Origin: an uncultured Dehalococcoidia bacterium
GTDB lineage: Bacteria > Chloroflexota > Dehalococcoidia > Lucifugimonadales > GCA-2712585
DNA: 64,000 bases
Direction: 5' to 3'
Assembly: GCA_951812825.1 (NCBI GenBank)
Contig: OX638324.1
Span: forward strand, 1,673,141-1,737,140
The position numbers were made by a program, and so were the translations under genes. The notes below the pieces were generated by a model. That model saw only the letters and a program-made list of their open reading frames with translations. It did no database searches and was not told the DNA's origin. Shown here in pieces: positions 1,963 through 36,017 of the stretch (the stretch's first letter is position 1; each line of letters begins with the position of its first letter).

Positions 1963-4089
1963 TTGGGAGACGCAATAATCAACACCTTCAAGGCCCTCGG
2001 TTTCTGGCGAATCAGCTTCCTCGTGCTCCTGCTCCTGGCATCCGGGAGCGCAGTCTACGGCATCTATATCTGGGTAGGCCGGGAAGACTCCGACGCTCTG
2101 GAGGAGGACCAGCAGATAGTCGCCGTTGCTGAGGGCAATCTGGTCAACCAGGTCGTCATAAGCGGCAGCCTCCAGTTTCCCACCCGCGAGACCCTAAAGT
2201 TCGGCGCCGCCGGCGTTGTGGAGGAACTTCGCGTCGAGGAGGGCGACTACGTCGAGGCCGGGCAGGTCATCGCCGCCCTCGACGTTGAGACCATCGCCGA
2301 ACTCCGTGAGGAGATCGACGGCGCCCGCGTAAATATTCAGGACGCCGAAGACGCCATCGAAGACCTCAACAACCCCTATACCGCCCTCGACGTGGTGACC
2401 GCCGAAGAGAAGGTCGTCACCGCCAGGGTCGCTCTCCGCGACGCCGAGGAGGCTCTGGAAGACCTTCTCGCCCTCCCCGACTTGGAGGACGACATAGCCA
2501 ATGCGGAATGGGATATAGAGAAAGCCAAGCTGGACATCGCCAAGGCCGAGGACGCACTGGCCAAGCTGACCGCGGATGCGGACCCCGACGACGTAGAGAA
2601 GGCTGCGGCCAAGATCGACTCCATCGAAGTTTCCCTGCAAAACGCCCGGCAGGACCTTGAACTGCTGGACGAAGAATGGGAAGCCAAGCTCGATGCCGCC
2701 CGGGAAACGGAAGAGGAAGCGTTCTTGGCATATCAGGACGTTGTCTTACGGTATCTGGGCGCAGAGGTTAGTGATGAGGAGTCCCGCCTTCCGCCCCGGG
2801 AGATGATATCCGCCTGGGGAACCAGCCTGGAAACCCTCTTCACCCCTCCGGACGTGGATTCTTTTGACCTCGCCCGACAGTTGCAGTTGCAGGACGATCC
2901 GGATACTCCCTGGAGCGAAATTACAATTCAGGGCTGGACCATCTTCTCCTTAGGCTCCGTCATCCCTGTCTGCGAAGAAGAGACGCCCCTTCCGCGGTGG
3001 CAGATCTGCGTTAGCCGCGAGCTTGAGCCGCCCTGGGAGAAGCTTGACGAGGCCCGCGATCCCCTGGACGATCTTCAGAATCAGTACGACGCTGCCCGCG
3101 ACAAGTCTGAGGCAAACATAAGCGACATCCAACAGTCCCTGAAGGAAGCTCAGACGGCTCTCGGCGACCTCTTCGAAGCTGCCGATCCCATAGATGTGCA
3201 GAACGCCCAGTTCAACATATCTCAGGCCTGGAAGGCCTTGTCGGACGCAGAACAAGTCTACGATGACCTGATTGAGCAGCTCCTTGAGAAGCCCGACCCC
3301 GTTGACGTGGATGCCAAATCCAAGGCTATTGAGTCCGCCCGGGCGTCCCTCGCCCAGGCCGAGGAAGACCTCGGCGCCCTCTTTGACCCCCCGGACCCGC
3401 TGCAGATGGCCCTGCGGGAAAGTCAGATGGTCTCCGCCCAATTGGCCCTCGAAGCCGCCGAAGCTCGTTTGGAATCCGCCGTCGTCGTTGCCCCCTGGAG
3501 CGGCCTCGTGGCCGGCGTATCCCTTGAGCAGGGCGACGAAGTCAACCGCAACGCCGGCATCGTGGAAATCGTCGACCCCCTGGACGTGGAGTTGGACGGC
3601 ATCATCGACGAGATAGACGTGCTCTCCGTTCAGGTTGGCGACCAGGCCGTCGTCAGCATGGACGCCCTGCCCGGCGAAAGCCTGACAGGCGTCGTCTCCA
3701 GCATCGACGCCGGCGCTACCAACCAGCAGGGCGTCGTCACCTACCCCATCCGCGTCCGCATGACCGTTCCCCCGGACCTCAACCTCATCGAGGGTCTCAG
3801 CGCCGTTGCGGAAGTTGTCATTCAGGAAGAACGCGGCCTGCTTATTCCCGTGCAGGCCGTCATGGGCCGCTTCGATGCCCCCGTCGTGCAGGTCATGGAA
3901 GACGGCAAGATTCAGCAGCGGGCCGTTACCCTCGGCATCAGCGACGACTTCTGGGTCATAGTTACCTCCGGCCTCATCGAAGGCGAGCAGGTGGTGTTCC
4001 AGGCCCCCGAGTCCTCTGGCTTCGACTTCGGCGGATTCCGGGGCGGCCCCGGCGGCGGTTTCATAATTCGCGGCGGTCCCGGCCGCTAG
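1963..4089 (+). CDS. HlyD/MacA-type efflux adaptor with long repeat-bearing coiled coil
   Basis: A 708-residue membrane-fusion (adaptor) subunit of an ABC efflux system. It has one N-terminal membrane segment (about residues 14-36), then a biotinyl-lipoyl-like half (about 83-107, [18 protein letters not shown]) whose partner half is near residues 510-540 ([19 protein letters not shown]). Beta-barrel and membrane-proximal domains follow, and the tail is glycine-rich. The helical region between the lipoyl halves is far longer than in a typical 350-450-residue MacA. It contains DP-x-D/L-motif heptad repeats near residues 206, 407, 444 and 476, plus a non-coiled insert (about 265-365) with two cysteines (C337, C349). 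The start is TTG, with AGGAG seven bases upstream at 1951-1955. It is first in an operon with the ATPase and permease. Confidence 0.9.
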
Positions 4090-13621: not shown

Positions 13622-15334
13622 CTATCTCCCCTCCCACCACCTGCCCCAAGCCCCCTGAATAGCCTCCGGGTCGAAATCGTCGTTCAGAATTGCGTCGATC
13701 AACCGCGGCTCCCCGGACTCCAGCGCCTCCTTGAGCTCCGGCCCCAACTCTTCAGGACGCTCCACCCGTATCCCCTTCACCCCAAACGACTTCGCCATCG
13801 CGGCGAAATCCAATGGATGGTCGTAAAAGTCCATCCCGATGTACTTGCTCTCCCGCTCCCGTCCCGTCAGATAGCGGGCCATGTTCTCCCGCAGCACCTT
13901 GTAGCTGCCGTTGTTGCAAATCACCCACACAACCGGAATCCCGTAATTCGCCGCCGTCCACAGTGCCTGGATGGTGAACATCGCGGTCCCGTCTCCAATA
14001 ATCCCCACCACCGGACGGTCCGGCGCTGCCAGCTTCATTCCCAACGTCGCGCCCATGCCGAAACCCAGACTCCCGCCGCGGCCCCCCACCAGCGAGCCGG
14101 GTTCGTCAAAGTTCAACGCCCCCATCAACGCGCTGCGCACCGTGATAGAGTCGTCGCACACCAGCACGTCCGGCGGCAAAGCCCTTCGAAGCTCCACCGC
14201 AAATCGTTCTGGCGAGGTGGGCGACTCATCCCATCGCCGGTTCACCAACGCGTCAAACGACTCTCGTCGACGCAGCTTCTCTTCCTCCACGGCCCTTCTT
14301 CTCTCGCGGGCCGCTTCTGTATCCGATGCCGTCATCCTTTCCGAGAGGGTCTGCGAAAGCTGTTCCAGGCTCCCGGCAATGTCTCCCAACACCCCCGCCG
14401 CCACCGGATAGGAACGCTGCATGTCCCAGTCGCTGCAGTCCACGTGCACCAGCTTGGGCGGCCCGCTGAAGGGAGGCTCCGGCGTGGGAATCGACTGCAC
14501 CATAACCTCCGTGCCTATGGCCAGAATCAGGTCCGCGGCGTCGAACCTCTCCTTCATGTTCCGGTGTAGCCAACTTGTATCGAAGGTTCCCATATAGTGG
14601 GGGTGCGAGCTTGGCAGATGCACCTCCGAAAAGCTCGTGGCAAACACCGGCGCGCCAATCTGCTCCGCCAGCCGGGCAACCAACGCCGGCGCTCCCGGCG
14701 ATTGCGACACCCGGTCGCCCACCAGCATCAGCGGACGTTGCGCGCCAGATAGCAGCCGAGCCGCCCTTTCCACCGCTCTTGGGTCCGGCAGCACCCGGAA
14801 GTAGTGGTCGACGGAAGGAGCTATGTCCATCTCCGCTTCTCTGTTCATCGAGTCCCACGCAAAGGACACGAAAACCGGCCCCGTTGGAGGCGTTGCCGCC
14901 ACCTTGAAAGCCCGTCGAACAATAGCCGGTACGTCTTCCGGCGTGGCCACCTCTCCCGCCCACTTGGTGTACTCCCGCATCACGTTGACCATGTTGGAGT
15001 AAAGCGTCGGGTTGTGAAGCTGCAAGCTGGCGGCCGTCTGCCCCGCCGTTATCACCATTGGCGTCCCGCCCCGCCACGAGTTGTACATGACGGCAATGCT
15101 GTTGGACACCCCCACGGAAATGTGGAAATTCATGAAGGAAGGTCGTTGGGTTATGCGAGCGTAACCGTCGGCCATCCCCGCCGCCACCCCCTCGAACAAG
15201 CTGGTCACGTACTGAATCTCCGGCGCGTCCTGCAAGGCGTCCAAGAAGGGCAGCTCCGTCGTCCCCGGATTCCCGAAAACGTACCGCACACCTTCGGCAC
15301 GCAGCATCTCCACCAGCGCCCGCTGACCCGTCAT
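13622..15334 (-). CDS. Thiamine-diphosphate-dependent enzyme (benzoylformate decarboxylase/acetolactate synthase family)
   Basis: A 570-residue three-domain ThDP enzyme. The PYR domain has glutamate E48 (SLFEGVAAG), which activates the cofactor. The middle domain follows at about 190-320. The PP domain has GDGTAMFTIQALW...ICNN, the complete Mg-ThDP motif. Sequence style (FGNPGTTELPF near the N-terminus) is closest to benzoylformate decarboxylase, so a 2-oxo-acid decarboxylase is likely. The ATG at 15334 is taken; a GTG at 15343 with AGGGG four bases upstream is a good alternative. Coding begins within 20 bases of the hyuB stop, so the genes are coupled. Confidence 0.9.
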   Translation of the reverse strand: MTGQRALVEMLRAEGVRYVFGNPGTTELPFLDALQDAPEIQYVTSLFEGVAAGMADGYARITQRPSFMNFHISVGVSNSIAVMYNSWRGGTPMVITAGQTAASLQLHNPTLYSNMVNVMREYTKWAGEVATPEDVPAIVRRAFKVAATPPTGPVFVSFAWDSMNREAEMDIAPSVDHYFRVLPDPRAVERAARLLSGAQRPLMLVGDRVSQSPGAPALVARLAEQIGAPVFATSFSEVHLPSSHPHYMGTFDTSWLHRNMKERFDAADLILAIGTEVMVQSIPTPEPPFSGPPKLVHVDCSDWDMQRSYPVAAGVLGDIAGSLEQLSQTLSERMTASDTEAARERRRAVEEEKLRRRESFDALVNRRWDESPTSPERFAVELRRALPPDVLVCDDSITVRSALMGALNFDEPGSLVGGRGGSLGFGMGATLGMKLAAPDRPVVGIIGDGTAMFTIQALWTAANYGIPVVWVICNNGSYKVLRENMARYLTGRERESKYIGMDFYDHPLDFAAMAKSFGVKGIRVERPEELGPELKEALESGEPRLIDAILNDDFDPEAIQGAWGRWWEGR

Positions 15335-15350
15335 CCGCGCCACGCCGCCC

Positions 15351-17075
15351 CTAACCCCTCTCCCGCCGCAGCGCAGCCGTCGCTTCTTCATCCACCACCC
15401 CCGCGGCCTCGTCCATCACCACCCCGTAGGCCTCGCGGGCGTGCGCCGACGTCACTTTCCCGTTGCGCCAGTCCCACCACACCGCCTGCGGCTCCCGCTC
15501 CAGCGGGTTGCCGTAGCCTCCTCCCCCGGGCGACTGGTGACGGAACACGTCCCCCTGCTTAAGCACCGTGTTGATCTTCGTCGGCAGCAACTCTTCACCA
15601 TCGTCGCGCTTGAGAATGTTTGACGACCCTTTGCCTGCGCCGCCTCCCTCCAGCCCGTAGGGCGGAAAGGCACGACGGTCCGACCTCCACGTAATAGTCG
15701 CCTCCGGCGTCAGCACCTCCCACTCCCGCGCAAGGGCCAGCCCGCCCCGGTGTCGCCCAGGTCCTCCCGAGTCGGGTACGTATCCGTAGCTTCTCAACCG
15801 CAATGGCACCTGCGATTCGATGATCTCCACCGAAACGTTGGAGACGTTCGCGCCCACGCTGGCCACACCGCCCCGGCCGTCGCCGCTGTTCCACGCACCG
15901 CGTATGCCGAAAACGTTGTCGTAGAAGACCCGGATAGTCCCGTCCGGCTGTCGGAAGCCGAAGCGCCCCGTGGACGTTCCGCCCTCCGGCGCGGCTGCCA
16001 CCCGCTCCGGCACCACTTGGGCCAGCGCCCCCAACACCGCGTCCACTAGACGAAACGACGTCACGCCGCGGGCGGCGCACGATGCCGGATGCTGCATGTT
16101 CGTAATCGTCCCCTCCGGCGCAACCACCTCCACCGGACGGAAGCAGCCGGAGTTGTTCGGCATGTCCTCGCCAATGGCGCATCGGATGGCGCAATAGGCC
16201 ATCGCCTTGCTCTGGCTCAACACGCAGTTGATGGCCCCGCGAGTCTGCGGCGACGTTCCCGTGAAGTCCACAAGCGCCGAATCGCCCTTTATGTGCAGCG
16301 CAACCTGAATAGGGATGGGGTCATCGCTCAACCCGTCCTCGTCCAGATAGTCGGTGAAGTGATAGACTCCGTCGGGCCATTCAGATATGCCCTGACGTGT
16401 AATCCGCTCGCTATAGTCCATCAGCTGCCGCAGGTAGAACTTCAACGTTTCCGTGCCGTACTCCTCAACCAGGTCCAGAATGCCCCGGCTCCCCATCCCG
16501 TTGGCAGAAATCTGGCTGGCGAAATCCCCCATCACCACCTCCGGCGTGCGGACGTTAAGCTGAATCATCTCTGCCAGCGTCTCGTTCAGCTTGCCCCTGT
16601 CGTACAGCTTCATGGGTGGGATGCGGATCCCCTCCTGGTAAATCTCCGTCGAGTCGTGGGCCATGCTCCCCGCAGCCCGGCCTCCCACGTCCATGTGGTG
16701 CACCACCGTCACCGCATATCCGAAAATCTCATCCTCCACGATTATCGGCGTCACGAGAAAAATATCCGGCAGATGCAGCCCCCCGGAGTAAGGGTCGTTC
16801 AGAATCATCACGTCCCCGGGATGAATATCCCCGCCAAACCTGTTCAGCACGGCCTGCACTGTCTCGGGGATGCCCCCCATGTGAATCGGAATGGCCAATC
16901 CCTGGTCCAAGACGTCCCCGTTGGTGTCGCACAACGCCGCCGAGAAGTCGAAGGCCTGCGTCGTGGTCGGAGACCTGCCTGTCCTCTGAACCGTCAACAT
17001 CATCTCGTCGGTGATGGACTGGAGCGCGTTTCGAATGACCTCGAACGTAATAGGGTCGAAGGTATGCTCTCTCAA
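15351..17075 (-). CDS. hyuB: Hydantoinase B/oxoprolinase family protein
   Basis: A 574-residue HyuB-type subunit (DPITFEVIRNAL at the N-terminus, DVMILNDPYSGGLHLPDI and SPGGGGYGNP further on). With HyuA it forms ATP-dependent hydantoinase, 5-oxoprolinase or acetone/acetophenone-carboxylase type enzymes. A TTG start at 17075 is assigned because it overlaps the hyuA stop as TTGA (4 bp), with GGGGGCAAGAG upstream; the upstream ATG at 17108 would force a longer overlap and adds unconserved residues. The length is normal for HyuB. Confidence 0.92.
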   Translation of the reverse strand: MREHTFDPITFEVIRNALQSITDEMMLTVQRTGRSPTTTQAFDFSAALCDTNGDVLDQGLAIPIHMGGIPETVQAVLNRFGGDIHPGDVMILNDPYSGGLHLPDIFLVTPIIVEDEIFGYAVTVVHHMDVGGRAAGSMAHDSTEIYQEGIRIPPMKLYDRGKLNETLAEMIQLNVRTPEVVMGDFASQISANGMGSRGILDLVEEYGTETLKFYLRQLMDYSERITRQGISEWPDGVYHFTDYLDEDGLSDDPIPIQVALHIKGDSALVDFTGTSPQTRGAINCVLSQSKAMAYCAIRCAIGEDMPNNSGCFRPVEVVAPEGTITNMQHPASCAARGVTSFRLVDAVLGALAQVVPERVAAAPEGGTSTGRFGFRQPDGTIRVFYDNVFGIRGAWNSGDGRGGVASVGANVSNVSVEIIESQVPLRLRSYGYVPDSGGPGRHRGGLALAREWEVLTPEATITWRSDRRAFPPYGLEGGGAGKGSSNILKRDDGEELLPTKINTVLKQGDVFRHQSPGGGGYGNPLEREPQAVWWDWRNGKVTSAHAREAYGVVMDEAAGVVDEEATAALRRERG

Positions 17076-19180
17076 GACTCTTGCCCCCAACTCAAAATTA
17101 CATTCCATCCCTCGTCCCGCCTGACGCTGCACCCTGGAGGAACGACAATAGTCGTGTCGTATTCCTCCACGATTACAGGTCCGGGAATCGCCTCCGACGA
17201 CAGATGCCCCCGTGTGATTATCTCCGTCTCCACAAGGCCCAACTCCCGGCCGAAATAGGCCTTGCGCCGTCCCCTGGCTCCGCCGGCGTCATAGAGGGCC
17301 GCGCCCATGGACTCCATTTCCAACTCGGACGATGCATCAACGTCGGGCCGCCCGACAACGCGAATGTTGGTCACCTCTATCGCCTCGCTGTCGGAGCGAT
17401 AACCATAGGTGCGCTGATGCTCCTGCCCGAAGGCTTCCTTCAGTTCCTGCACGGAGTCGGAGTCCGGCACGGGCACCGTCAACTCGTGTATCTGCGCCGC
17501 ATAGTGTAGGTCTGCATACCGCTGGAACGTAAGCCGTTTTGGGTCGTACCCTTCCCGGCGCAATACCTGCGCCGCCTCATCCTCCAACGCACTGAACCCT
17601 GACACCAACCCATCGACCGCCCCATCTCCCGTCACCATCATCAAACTGCGGACGAACTCATATTCCTGTGCCGCAGCCAGAAGGCCCAGGCTGCTGAACA
17701 ACCCCGGCGCCGTTGGCACAATGACCCTGTTGATACCCATCTGCCGCGCCAAGGCCGCCGCGTGGCACGGCCCGCTCCCCCCGAATGCAACCAGCGAAAA
17801 GTTCCGCGCGTCCCGGCCCCGCTCCGTGGTCACCGAACGCATCGCCCGCGCCATCGCCGCGTTGGCTACTACGTGCACCCCATAGGCCGCATCCAGCACT
17901 GATAACCCCAGCGGTCGGGCCACCTTTTCGTCAAATATTCGCCGCGTCTTCTCCAGATTCACCTTCAGAGATCCGCCCAGCAGGTGCTCCGGGTTCAGGT
18001 ATCCCAGTAGCATGTTCGCGTCGCTCGTCGTCGGCTCTTTCCCACCCCGGTCGTAGCAGATGGGACCCGGTTCCGCCCCTGCGCTCTGAGGCCCCACGTG
18101 GAAGGAACCGGCAGCGTCCAACGACACCAGGCTACCTCCGCCGGCCCCCACCTCCGCCACGTCCACCGCCCGCACCATCAGCAGATATCCGCCTCCCTTG
18201 AGAAGCCGGCTCCCCTTGGAGATTGGCGCGCCAATCTCGTACTCCATCGACTTGAGGGGGTCTCCCTCCTCGATGACCGCTGCCTTGGTTGTAGTGCCCC
18301 CCATGTCGAAAGTCAGCAGGTTTGGCATCGACAGCTTCTTCGACAGGTGTAGGGCCCCCGACACGCCCGCAACCGGCCCCGATTCCAACGAGAAAACGGG
18401 TCGTTCCCCCGCCCTGTGCGACGTCATCATCCCCCCGCTGGACTGCATCACCAGAATCGGCGCGTCTATCCCCATCGCCGACACCCGGTCCCGCAGCGAC
18501 CTCAGGTACGTGTTCATCACCGGCATCAGGTAGGCGTTTGCGACGGTGGTGCTGGTCCGTTCGTACTCCCGAATGGCGCTCACCACCTCATGAGAGAGAC
18601 TGACGAATAATTCGGGGGACTCTGCCTGCACCACCTCCCGGATGGCCCGTTCGTGTACCGGATTGCGATAGGCGTTGATGAGGCACACCGCCAACGATTC
18701 CACTCCCTCCGCCAGAAGCTCTTCAATCCTCTGTCGCACTTCGTCCGGGTCCAGTGCTGTCAGCACCTGCCCTCCGGCGTCCAACCGTTCGTCAACTTCC
18801 AGCCGCAGGTAGCGTGGCACCAAAGGGTCCGGCGGCTCGTAGAAAAGGTCGTACAGGGTTGGCGTCCGAAGACGGCGAACCTCCAGCACGTCCCGAAACC
18901 CCTTGGTGGTGATGAGGCCGACCTTCGCCCCTTTGCGCTCCAGCACTGCGTTGGTAGCGGCAGTGGTGCTGTGGCACACCTCCACCACGTCTGAAGCCGT
19001 CACCCCCGCCTCCTCCAAGGCCTCGCCAATACCCCTGATGATTCCCTCGTCATACCGCCCGGGCGTGGACGAAACTTTTCGCACCGACATCCGTCCGTCC
19101 GGCCCCGTCAGCACCACGTCGGTGAACGTGCCCCCCACGTCGACGCCAAGCCGATATCTTCTATGTTCAAGCGTAGTCAT
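17072..19180 (-). CDS. hyuA: Hydantoinase A/oxoprolinase family protein
   Basis: A 702-residue ATPase subunit of the ASKHA fold. The N-terminal phosphate-binding loop is LGVDVGGTFTDVVL. Other family signatures include CHSTTAATNAVLERKGAK, TFDMGGTTTKAAVI (second phosphate loop) and FGGSGPCHAAALA. It activates an amide or carbonyl with ATP for the HyuB subunit. The ATG at 19180 is chosen because homology begins right after it; the upstream frame is unconserved. It is first in the catabolic operon. The neighbouring ThDP decarboxylase and amidohydrolase suggest degradation of a cyclic amide or a related oxo-acid, not glutathione recycling, but this is inference. Confidence 0.93.
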   Translation of the reverse strand: MTTLEHRRYRLGVDVGGTFTDVVLTGPDGRMSVRKVSSTPGRYDEGIIRGIGEALEEAGVTASDVVEVCHSTTAATNAVLERKGAKVGLITTKGFRDVLEVRRLRTPTLYDLFYEPPDPLVPRYLRLEVDERLDAGGQVLTALDPDEVRQRIEELLAEGVESLAVCLINAYRNPVHERAIREVVQAESPELFVSLSHEVVSAIREYERTSTTVANAYLMPVMNTYLRSLRDRVSAMGIDAPILVMQSSGGMMTSHRAGERPVFSLESGPVAGVSGALHLSKKLSMPNLLTFDMGGTTTKAAVIEEGDPLKSMEYEIGAPISKGSRLLKGGGYLLMVRAVDVAEVGAGGGSLVSLDAAGSFHVGPQSAGAEPGPICYDRGGKEPTTSDANMLLGYLNPEHLLGGSLKVNLEKTRRIFDEKVARPLGLSVLDAAYGVHVVANAAMARAMRSVTTERGRDARNFSLVAFGGSGPCHAAALARQMGINRVIVPTAPGLFSSLGLLAAAQEYEFVRSLMMVTGDGAVDGLVSGFSALEDEAAQVLRREGYDPKRLTFQRYADLHYAAQIHELTVPVPDSDSVQELKEAFGQEHQRTYGYRSDSEAIEVTNIRVVGRPDVDASSELEMESMGAALYDAGGARGRRKAYFGRELGLVETEIITRGHLSSEAIPGPVIVEEYDTTIVVPPGCSVRRDEGWNVILSWGQES

Positions 19181-19325
19181 AAGCCGCAAACCGACGCTTA
19201 TTATACAGCGTTGGGAGAACCACGGCGGCATTTCGGCTGTCGGCTGGAAAGGGAGAGGCATGGGTTTGAATTGCATATGGCAATGGTGTTGGGCTGTCTC
19301 TCTCTCAATCGTCTATAATTCGCCA

Positions 19326-33810: not shown

Positions 33811-34021
33811 GGCAGACCTCCCCGGCGGGTGTTGAAGTTGGAACAACAAGACTGCGCCCCACACCTCCGATGATAGGCGATACAGCTGGGGAAATTCCAG
33901 GCTGGAGGTGGTAGAAACTGAAGAACTAGCTGTCTTTGTTGACCCACGCCATCCCCCTTGGTAGTATGAGCAAAATCCCGTATTGTTTATCTTGAACCCC
34001 ACCACCGCAGGAGAAAAAGCC

Positions 34022-34528
34022 ATGGAGCAGGCCGAAACAGTCCTTCACCCCCACGCCATACTCTCGGAACTCAGGAAGAACGACGTCACCCACGTGGTGT
34101 GGCTCCCTGACAGCGAGACCAACTTCATGTACGAACAGCTTATGGCGGACCCCACCCTTGAGCTGGTGCCCGTTTCCAGAGAGGGCGAGACCATGGCCAT
34201 CGCCGCCGGCCTCTGGGTGGGCGGTAAAAAGCCTGTGGCCCTCATCCAGAACACCGGCATCTTCGAGTCGGGCGACTCCATCCGTGGCCTGGGCCTCGAC
34301 GTAGATCAGCCCCTGGTCATGCTTATTGGCTATAGGGGCTGGGACCGTCACGGCATCGTTCGCGACTCCGCCGCCAAGTTCACCGAGCACATCATCCACG
34401 CCTGGGGCATCAACTACTACCTGGTTGAAACCGACGACGATGCGGACCGCATCTCCCTGGCCATGAACGAGGCCCAGCGAGATTCCAAGCCCGTCGCCGT
34501 TCTGGTCGGCACCGAATTCGGCGCTTAG
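34022..34528 (+). CDS. ThDP enzyme alpha subunit (PYR domain; sulfopyruvate/phosphonopyruvate decarboxylase-like)
   Basis: A 168-residue free-standing PYR domain. It contains VSREGETMAIAAGL with the cofactor-activating glutamate, and IQNTGIFESGDSIRGL, typical of ComD-like subunits of sulfopyruvate decarboxylase and of phosphonopyruvate decarboxylase. The active site forms with the beta subunit encoded 127 bases downstream. The ATG at 34022 has AGGAG eight bases upstream. The reaction is a non-oxidative decarboxylation of a 3-substituted pyruvate by family analogy; the actual acid is unknown. Confidence 0.85.
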   Translation: MEQAETVLHPHAILSELRKNDVTHVVWLPDSETNFMYEQLMADPTLELVPVSREGETMAIAAGLWVGGKKPVALIQNTGIFESGDSIRGLGLDVDQPLVMLIGYRGWDRHGIVRDSAAKFTEHIIHAWGINYYLVETDDDADRISLAMNEAQRDSKPVAVLVGTEFGA

Positions 34529-34655
34529 ATTTTGGGCCTGAACCGGAGCGCCTCTTTGGCGAAGGCATTGTAGGAAAGTTTCCGGGGGTTCATTACCAGG
34601 CCCTGCAGGCAGAGGCGCTGACCGGCGCCAAATTTGGCTCCCAAGGGGAAAAAGA

Positions 34656-35243
34656 ATGATTGACAACTTAGACGCCTGCCGCGTTATTGAGCGGAATCGA
34701 AACGACGCCATAGTCGTCACCACCATGGGCGCCGGCAACCCCCGTTTCGGCTGGCCCATCGTCTCCCGGGACGAGACTATGGACGTGCCTGTGGGCGGAG
34801 CCATGGGCAAGGCCTCCTCCTTCGCCCTGGGCCTCGCCCTCGCCCAGCCTGGCCGCAATGTCCTCATCCTCGACGGCGACGGCAGCTTGGTCATGAACCT
34901 CGGCACCCTGACCACCATCAGCGAAAGGGCGCCGGCCAATCTCTATCATTTCGTCTTCGACAACGGCTGCTACGCCGTCACCGGCGGCCAGCCTATCCCC
35001 GCCGATGGCAAAGTCAGCTTCAAAGAGATGGCCTCGGGCGCGGGCTACTCCGCCACCTACGAGTTCGACAACCTGGAAGACCTCGCCAGTGGCATAGGCG
35101 AAATTCTCCAGAAGCAGGGGCCGGTTCTTGTCAACCTGAAGATCACCCCTGAGATCGAAAACACCCCCATCGGCCAAAGGCCCAGGCCCACGCGAAATAC
35201 CTACGCGGCGGTTCAGGAACTGCGTCAGGCCCTCTCCGAATAA
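34656..35243 (+). CDS. ThDP enzyme beta subunit (PP domain)
   Basis: A 195-residue free-standing PP domain with a complete Mg-ThDP motif: LILDGDGSLVMN, then about 25 residues later VFDNGCYAVTGGQP. The GGAMGKASSFALGLALA segment preceding it is also standard (ComE-like). With the alpha subunit it makes one catalytic unit. The gap between the two genes (34529-34655) holds no recognisable gene. A small membrane protein and a degenerate beta-like copy follow in the same direction. Confidence 0.87.
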   Translation: MIDNLDACRVIERNRNDAIVVTTMGAGNPRFGWPIVSRDETMDVPVGGAMGKASSFALGLALAQPGRNVLILDGDGSLVMNLGTLTTISERAPANLYHFVFDNGCYAVTGGQPIPADGKVSFKEMASGAGYSATYEFDNLEDLASGIGEILQKQGPVLVNLKITPEIENTPIGQRPRPTRNTYAAVQELRQALSE

Positions 35244-35259
35244 AAGGCTGCCAGACCCT

Positions 35260-35454
35260 ATGCTCAAGTCCGTGCTGAACGCCGTCTTTGCCCCTATTCT
35301 GGGCATCCTGACCATGGGCGCAGGCTTCTACCTCCTCTACCTGGCCTTCCTCGACGGGCGCCCCCTCCCCGGCTTCGGCGGCGGCATTCTCATCCTTCTT
35401 GGGGCATGGCTCATGGCGCGAGCCCGTCGAGGCCCCGATACACCAACCCCTTGA
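35260..35454 (+). CDS. Small membrane protein
   Basis: 64 residues with two hydrophobic helices (LNAVFAPILGILTMGAGFYL and GGGILILLGAWLMA) and a basic C-terminus (ARARRG). It starts 16 bases after the beta subunit, and its stop overlaps the next gene as TTGA. No family is recognised. It might dock the ThDP proteins at the membrane, but only the position suggests this. Confidence 0.65.
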   Translation: MLKSVLNAVFAPILGILTMGAGFYLLYLAFLDGRPLPGFGGGILILLGAWLMARARRGPDTPTP

Positions 35455-36017
35455 TTCCCGCCCCTGAGGCCGCCCGGCTGATCAATAGCCGCCGTCGCGA
35501 CGCCGTCGTCGTCTCCGCCTCCGCCGCCCTCCGCCACTGGAGCGCCCTATCTGAACGCCGCGACCTGGACGTGGACCTGACCGACTGCCAGGACAAAGCC
35601 GCCGACGTTGCCCTCGGCATCTCCCTCGCCCGTCCCGACGCCAAAGTGCTCATCCTGGATACCGACGCTGCTCTCCGGACCAACCCCGGCGCTCTCCTGA
35701 CCACCGCTGCCTCCGCGCCGCCCAACCTGGTCCACTTCCTTCTGGAGGATGCAGGCCACCGCTCCACCGGCGGCTCACCCATCCCCGGCATCAGCGACAT
35801 CAACTTCGCCGCCTTGGCGGAAGAGGCGGGTTATCCCTCGGTGCACCGCATAGAAGACCTGGAAGACCTTGCCCTCTCCCTTGAGGATATTCTGATGGAA
35901 ACTGGCCCCGTCTTCGTCTCCATAAAGGTCATCCACCCCGTCGACCCTCCCCCCTTCCCGTTCCGCACCATGGCCGAGTCCCTCGCCGAAGTCCAAGAAA
36001 CCCTCGCCACCCGCTGA
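35451..36017 (+). CDS. Degenerate ThDP PP-domain protein (beta-subunit paralogue)
   Basis: 188 residues that align along their whole length with the beta subunit, two genes upstream. The cofactor motif is lost: GDGS became TDAA, the downstream D-N is E-D, and GGAMGKASS became DCQDKAADV. Structural positions are kept (VLILD, GALLTTAA, STGGSPIPG, GPVFVSIKV), so it should still fold. The TTG at 35451 is chosen because it forms a 4-bp TTGA overlap and makes the N-terminus (M-I-x4-A-x-R) match the beta subunit; an ATG at 35406 would overlap the previous gene by 49 bases. It is probably non-catalytic, perhaps regulatory or structural. Confidence 0.78.
   Translation: MIPAPEAARLINSRRRDAVVVSASAALRHWSALSERRDLDVDLTDCQDKAADVALGISLARPDAKVLILDTDAALRTNPGALLTTAASAPPNLVHFLLEDAGHRSTGGSPIPGISDINFAALAEEAGYPSVHRIEDLEDLALSLEDILMETGPVFVSIKVIHPVDPPPFPFRTMAESLAEVQETLATR

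Follow-up and report, generated by a model that had tools for sequence, protein, structure and literature searches.

The window, a 64,000-nucleotide stretch of the genome of an uncultured Dehalococcoidia bacterium, contains a four-gene cluster in which the two chains of a split ThDP decarboxylase are followed by a second module that has outlived the enzyme in some related lineages. This module comprises a membrane microprotein (micro) and beta', a homologue of the PP-domain subunit that has lost the cofactor motif and is under purifying selection. At a probability of roughly 0.5, we read beta' as a PP-domain protein without catalytic activity that is tethered to the membrane and serves the decarboxylase while also performing a separate function. 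The features of the cluster are as follows.

33939-33967, + strand: sigma-70-like promoter match upstream of alpha (TTGACC-17-TAGTAT, extended -10), a consensus match only
34022-34528, + strand: alpha, PYR-domain subunit, 168 aa, ATG start; TPP_enzyme_N match, REGE Glu
34656-35243, + strand: beta, PP-domain subunit, 195 aa, ATG start; GDGS, MGK and DNG motifs intact
35260-35454, + strand: micro, 64 aa, ATG start; two hydrophobic helices with positive charge flanking them on the N and C sides
35451-35454, + strand: TTGA, 4 bp in which the micro stop overlaps the TTG start of beta'; a 4-bp overlap also occurs in genomes G001, G002 and G004
35451-36017, + strand: beta', cofactor-dead PP-domain homologue, 188 aa, TTG start
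35583-35600, + strand: beta' loop D45-C46-Q47-D48-K49-A50, in place of the beta cofactor loop G48-A-M-G-K-A; D45 and C46 invariant, D48 98%
35655-35681, + strand: beta' LDTDAALRT versus beta LDGDGSLVM; glycines of GDG gone, Mg-type Asp72 retained, Arg76 conserved
35748-35750, + strand: beta' Asp100, invariant, at the position of the Mg-ligand Asn103 of beta

The frames of the four genes (34022-36017, + strand) match those in the initial annotation, whose description of split ThDP alpha and beta subunits, a 64-aa two-helix microprotein and a full-length TDAA homologue of beta with a 4-bp overlap agrees with the frames, the Pfam matches and the alignment. The TTG start of beta' is supported because relatives start at the equivalent aligned position with an equal 4-bp overlap, using TTG in loci L031 and L032 and ATG in L033; L031 lacks the alternative ATG that lies at 35406.

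Alpha and beta have the features of split ThDP decarboxylases of the ComDE/RhiEF kind, namely separate PYR and PP chains, a catalytic-type Glu in alpha (REGE, invariant across six aligned genomes) and a GDG-X-N motif in beta. Both exceed their Pfam cut-offs, alpha narrowly for TPP_enzyme_N (27.5 vs 26.8 bits) and beta amply for TPP_enzyme_C (68.3 vs 21.9 bits), and their nearest sequence relatives are ComDE and RhiEF. A structural model of beta has a pLDDT of 85. The equivalog cut-offs of TIGR03845, TIGR03846 and TIGR03297 were not reached (80.5 of 148, 112.2 of 221.5 and 119.7 of 312.5 bits), and with scores so far below them the substrate of alpha-beta is not inferable. The genome of the window also encodes a second live, orphan beta, with no alpha found adjoining it (L068:1795-2583, + strand; G000:C1:2137995-2138573).

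Beta and beta' align from end to end with 35% identity (E 7e-41), and beta' likewise exceeds the TPP_enzyme_C cut-off (36.7 vs 21.9 bits). The initial annotation had proposed that its fold-defining residues are retained, and the AlphaFold2 model bears this out, giving a confident PP-domain fold (pLDDT 92, pTM 0.90) for which RhiF is the best solved structural match (Foldseek; VIA-align Z 24.7 over 179 residues, rmsd 1.9). The ThDP/Mg motif, GDG(S) with an Asn ligand, is absent from beta': GDGS occurs in 0 of 47 sequences, being TDAA in the window, and the Asn is replaced by Asp. Selection on beta' is strong (dN/dS 0.02-0.1 in close pairs), similar to that on beta. Beta' thus resembles a prozyme, as a homologue of an active subunit that has lost catalytic residues and remains under purifying selection.

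A comparison of 44 betas with 47 beta' sequences identified 31 positions that are conserved and equal in the two families and 10 at which each family conserves a residue of its own. Switches from beta to beta' at the cofactor loops include G48 to D45, A49 to C46, S77 to T74 and N103 to D100, along with the less strict G51 to D48 (98%) and G74 to C71 (89%; Thr in the window); these loops show a modest enrichment of switched positions (Fisher P 0.016). The metal-binding Asp of GDG (D75 in beta, D72 in beta') is invariant in all 47 beta' proteins, as is the Asp that replaces the Asn ligand, and a hydroxyl persists at the diphosphate Ser position in 91% of them (T74). The claim that the ThDP/Mg residues are lost is therefore right only in part: it fails for the metal-binding Asp, and the Asn ligand has been replaced by Asp. 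Because the former cofactor site is conserved in a different form, with Asp45, Cys46, Asp48, Asp72 and Asp100 maintained, the alignment indicates that the pocket is re-specified, not released.

The initial annotation presented beta' as a copy beside the live gene. A recent duplication of the adjoining beta was ruled out by a tree in which 20 sampled beta' proteins form one group and 19 partner betas another, each supported at 100/97 against the other, as separate and old clades; the exact sister group of beta' is not settled by this tree. Since other genomes (G018, G029) contain live alpha-beta-beta2 tandems that have intact motifs and lack micro, beta' probably derives from a live second PP subunit. 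ThDP binding was most likely lost a single time, in an ancestor that already belonged to this SAR202/Dehalococcoidia order.

Micro contains two hydrophobic segments in all 47 sequences analyzed by hydropathy. Mean K+R counts in the same set are 2.0 on the N side, 0.9 in the loop and 3.1 in the C flank, so that by the positive-inside rule both ends are probably cytoplasmic; judged from hydropathy only, the protein has the two hydrophobic helices and positive cytoplasmic flanks of a membrane hairpin. Its sequence is loosely conserved (dN/dS 0.1-0.4 in close pairs) and matches no Pfam or NCBIfam family above cut-off, with the DMAC1/Dmo2-like family PF15055 at 15.9 bits against a gathering threshold of 27. 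That micro is a chance ORF was ruled out by its conservation and its co-occurrence with beta'. The two genes overlap in most of the 47 distinct loci that have beta' with micro upstream (by 4 bp in 13, 35 bp in 9 and 47 bp in 7). A lone micro homologue adjoins gltX in two small genomes of one family, G003 and G006, both without beta' (L132:2842-3018, - strand; L133:2825-3031, + strand).

Retention of the genes across the order is nested. Among 250 genomes, with beta' called above 230 bits and partner betas told from other betas by a score gap (clade support 100/97), micro was present in 55, beta' in 53 and alpha-beta in 50, and a partner beta without beta' was found in none of the 50. Micro is present in all 53 beta' genomes plus G003 and G006. 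The proposed link between beta' and the microprotein stood up in each of the 53, where beta' directly follows micro on the same contig and has an intact frame (hypergeometric P 2e-52 for co-occurrence, not corrected for kinship). The 50 of 53 beta' genomes with alpha-beta amount to far fewer than 50 independent observations, as they belong to one clade with vertical inheritance. The four-gene order, suggested earlier as a test, is retained in other genera and families, with alpha-beta-micro-beta' found in six genomes of three families among 40 relatives. Absence of the paralogue from relatives, interruption by stops and a lack of purifying selection were each looked at, and none spoke against the earlier account.

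A scan of 84,980 species yielded 53 named loci, all from MAGs whose titles read Dehalococcoidia, SAR202 cluster or Chloroflexi/Chloroflexota, which assigns the window to this group as well. Outside the order, 393 genomes drawn from the class gave no clear dead beta', the best score of 195 bits lying in the range of live beta2 proteins. Within the order, six loci (L082, L087, L088, L092, L101, L108) have 0.8-1.4 kb of extra DNA with other ORFs between beta and micro, and micro-beta' is still joined in each. In f40, the family with the most genomes, adjacency is partly plain synteny because the loci share a common neighborhood that includes asnS and DtxR. A DtxR-like regulator lies beyond beta' in many f40 loci (e.g., L099:4617-5378, - strand), often followed by an iron-type ABC transporter. 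These neighbors were considered as functional context and dropped; the gene after the cluster in the window encodes a zinc-ribbon protein.

In three genomes (G221, G223, G226; loci L099, L100, L123), micro-beta' lies between its usual neighbors and alpha-beta is gone from the locus. No partner-type alpha-beta was found elsewhere in these assemblies, which are MAGs of 87-91% completeness; incompleteness bears on absence elsewhere in the genome, not on the contiguous loci. In L100, a decayed C-terminal beta stump (3384-3602) remains upstream of the intact micro-beta', and alpha is gone. At least two losses of alpha-beta are required, because L099 and L100 are sisters and L123 groups elsewhere. 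The three beta' genes are intact and constrained (pN 0.09-0.12 vs pS 0.70-0.81). Because micro-beta' has persisted in certain lineages after the enzyme disappeared, beta' must also do something for which the cognate alpha-beta is not required, and a subunit role strictly dependent on that pair is disfavored. The heteromeric complex envisaged in the initial annotation is thus partly supported, though not as the whole function of an alpha-beta-beta' assembly.

In the mechanism that we propose, alpha (PYR) and beta (PP) form a split ThDP decarboxylase encoded together with a second, translationally coupled module. Micro, a predicted two-helix membrane hairpin, most likely anchors beta' to the membrane on the cytoplasmic side. 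Beta', an old PP-domain homologue that would have lost ThDP binding once and gained a new conserved acidic pocket, most likely helps to dock or regulate alpha-beta in the manner of a prozyme, without catalysis of its own, which supposes contact with alpha and a regulatory effect. Its alpha-beta-independent role might involve a ligand of its own in the remodeled pocket or service to other alpha-beta pairs. A more specific proposal, put forward tentatively, is that a single event converted a ThDP PP domain into a pseudoenzyme that is tethered to the membrane, binds a ligand and has a new conserved Asp/Cys pocket, within a layered assembly in which micro carries beta' and beta' carries alpha-beta. 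The decarboxylase would then need the dead subunit and not the reverse, and such layering would account for the nested gene retention.

The main alternative, possible although we think it rather unlikely, is that micro-beta' is an autonomous membrane-docked receptor. What was once the ThDP pocket of beta', now acidic and lined with Cys, would bind a putative ligand such as a divalent metal or cationic metabolite, and the receptor would signal by a route other than alpha-beta, which would be no more than a historical neighbor. Conservation of the Asp and Cys residues of the pocket, including Cys71 at 89%, favors such a receptor, as do the retention and constraint of micro-beta' after the loss of alpha-beta and the beta stump of L100. 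However, the failure to find cognate alpha-beta without beta' in any of 50 genomes is unexpected for a mere neighbor, a point that is weakened by kinship, and Cys71 is Thr in the window.

It is improbable that beta' is still an enzyme, either binding ThDP/Mg in an unusual manner with alpha or catalyzing another reaction. The invariant Mg-type Asp72, the invariant acidic residue at the Asn ligand position, which live relatives in the order likewise have as Asp, and the hydroxyl at the diphosphate Ser position are consistent with activity, but the two glycines of GDG and the one of MGK are gone, Asp has taken the place of Gly at two positions lining the diphosphate site, and neither Tyr106 nor Gln112 is retained. 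Loss of the cofactor motif and an identity to beta of 35% would also be expected of a functionless, decaying duplicate, which is scarcely credible for a gene that is intact in 53 genomes, strongly constrained, marked by a distinct conserved signature and confined to one ancient clade; decay to a pseudogene was rejected on this constraint and conservation.

Among solved enzymes, the closest is the heteromeric phosphonopyruvate decarboxylase RhiEF (PDB 9iz3/9iz4): it has split PYR and PP chains, alpha and beta match RhiE and RhiF in sequence, and beta' has the RhiF fold. It differs in consisting of two chains only, with no dead PP paralogue or membrane microprotein described (PMC12141560), and beta', for its part, has no ThDP motif. 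ComDE sulfopyruvate decarboxylase also has adjacent split subunits, and its group holds the best NCBIfam match of alpha and the second-best of beta, although these scores are far below the equivalog cut-offs (80.5/148 and 112/221.5 bits). The TPP-dependent alpha-imino acid decarboxylase AzcBC (PDB 9u8q) is another two-chain ThDP enzyme, to whose PP chain beta' aligns (Z 21.3); it is distant (20% identity), and the entry description mentions no dead PP copy or membrane protein.

Yeast Thi3 is a full-length homologue of ThDP decarboxylases that binds ThDP. It is comparable to beta' as a regulatory relative of these enzymes, whereas beta' is a bare PP domain without the ThDP motif; Thi3 is described as a decarboxylase-like thiamine sensor with a regulatory use (PMC4299793). 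The nearest functional analogy is to the prozymes, paralogues of trypanosomatid AdoMetDC and deoxyhypusine synthase that are catalytically dead and act as activators (PMC5201418, PMC3663545). Like beta', these are dead paralogues of an active subunit under selection; they differ in having unrelated folds, in being eukaryotic and in lacking a membrane microprotein, and activation is proven for them and only putative for beta'.

Dead paralogues that regulate live enzymes are already known. No description of one in a split ThDP decarboxylase with a dedicated membrane microprotein was found in the open-access literature searched, a minority of all papers, and the SAR202 papers among it contained nothing on this locus. 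Paralogue expansions in SAR202-related bacteria have been read as catabolic diversification (PMC6946804). The micro-beta' system, found widely among marine and sponge bacteria related to SAR202, shows that a paralogue of this kind need not be an enzyme. Relatives that lack the enzyme and keep the dead subunit make a stand-alone role of the pseudoenzyme directly testable.

Several other arrangements of PP-domain genes were observed in the order. In G017, the gene after alpha-beta is another dead PP paralogue, far more divergent and unaccompanied by micro (L044:3034-3639, + strand), perhaps an independent loss. In G034, alpha is followed by three copies of beta, the second of which has a partly degraded motif, TDGG for GDGS (L037:3658-4338, + strand). 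Orphan live PP subunits of the beta2 type without an adjacent alpha are common (L042, L045, L048, L051, L056, L059 and others) and often have an MTPNRYW signature. Elsewhere in the window (13622-19276, - strand), a single-chain ThDP enzyme adjoins two large ORFs that by eye resemble hydantoinase/oxoprolinase A and B.
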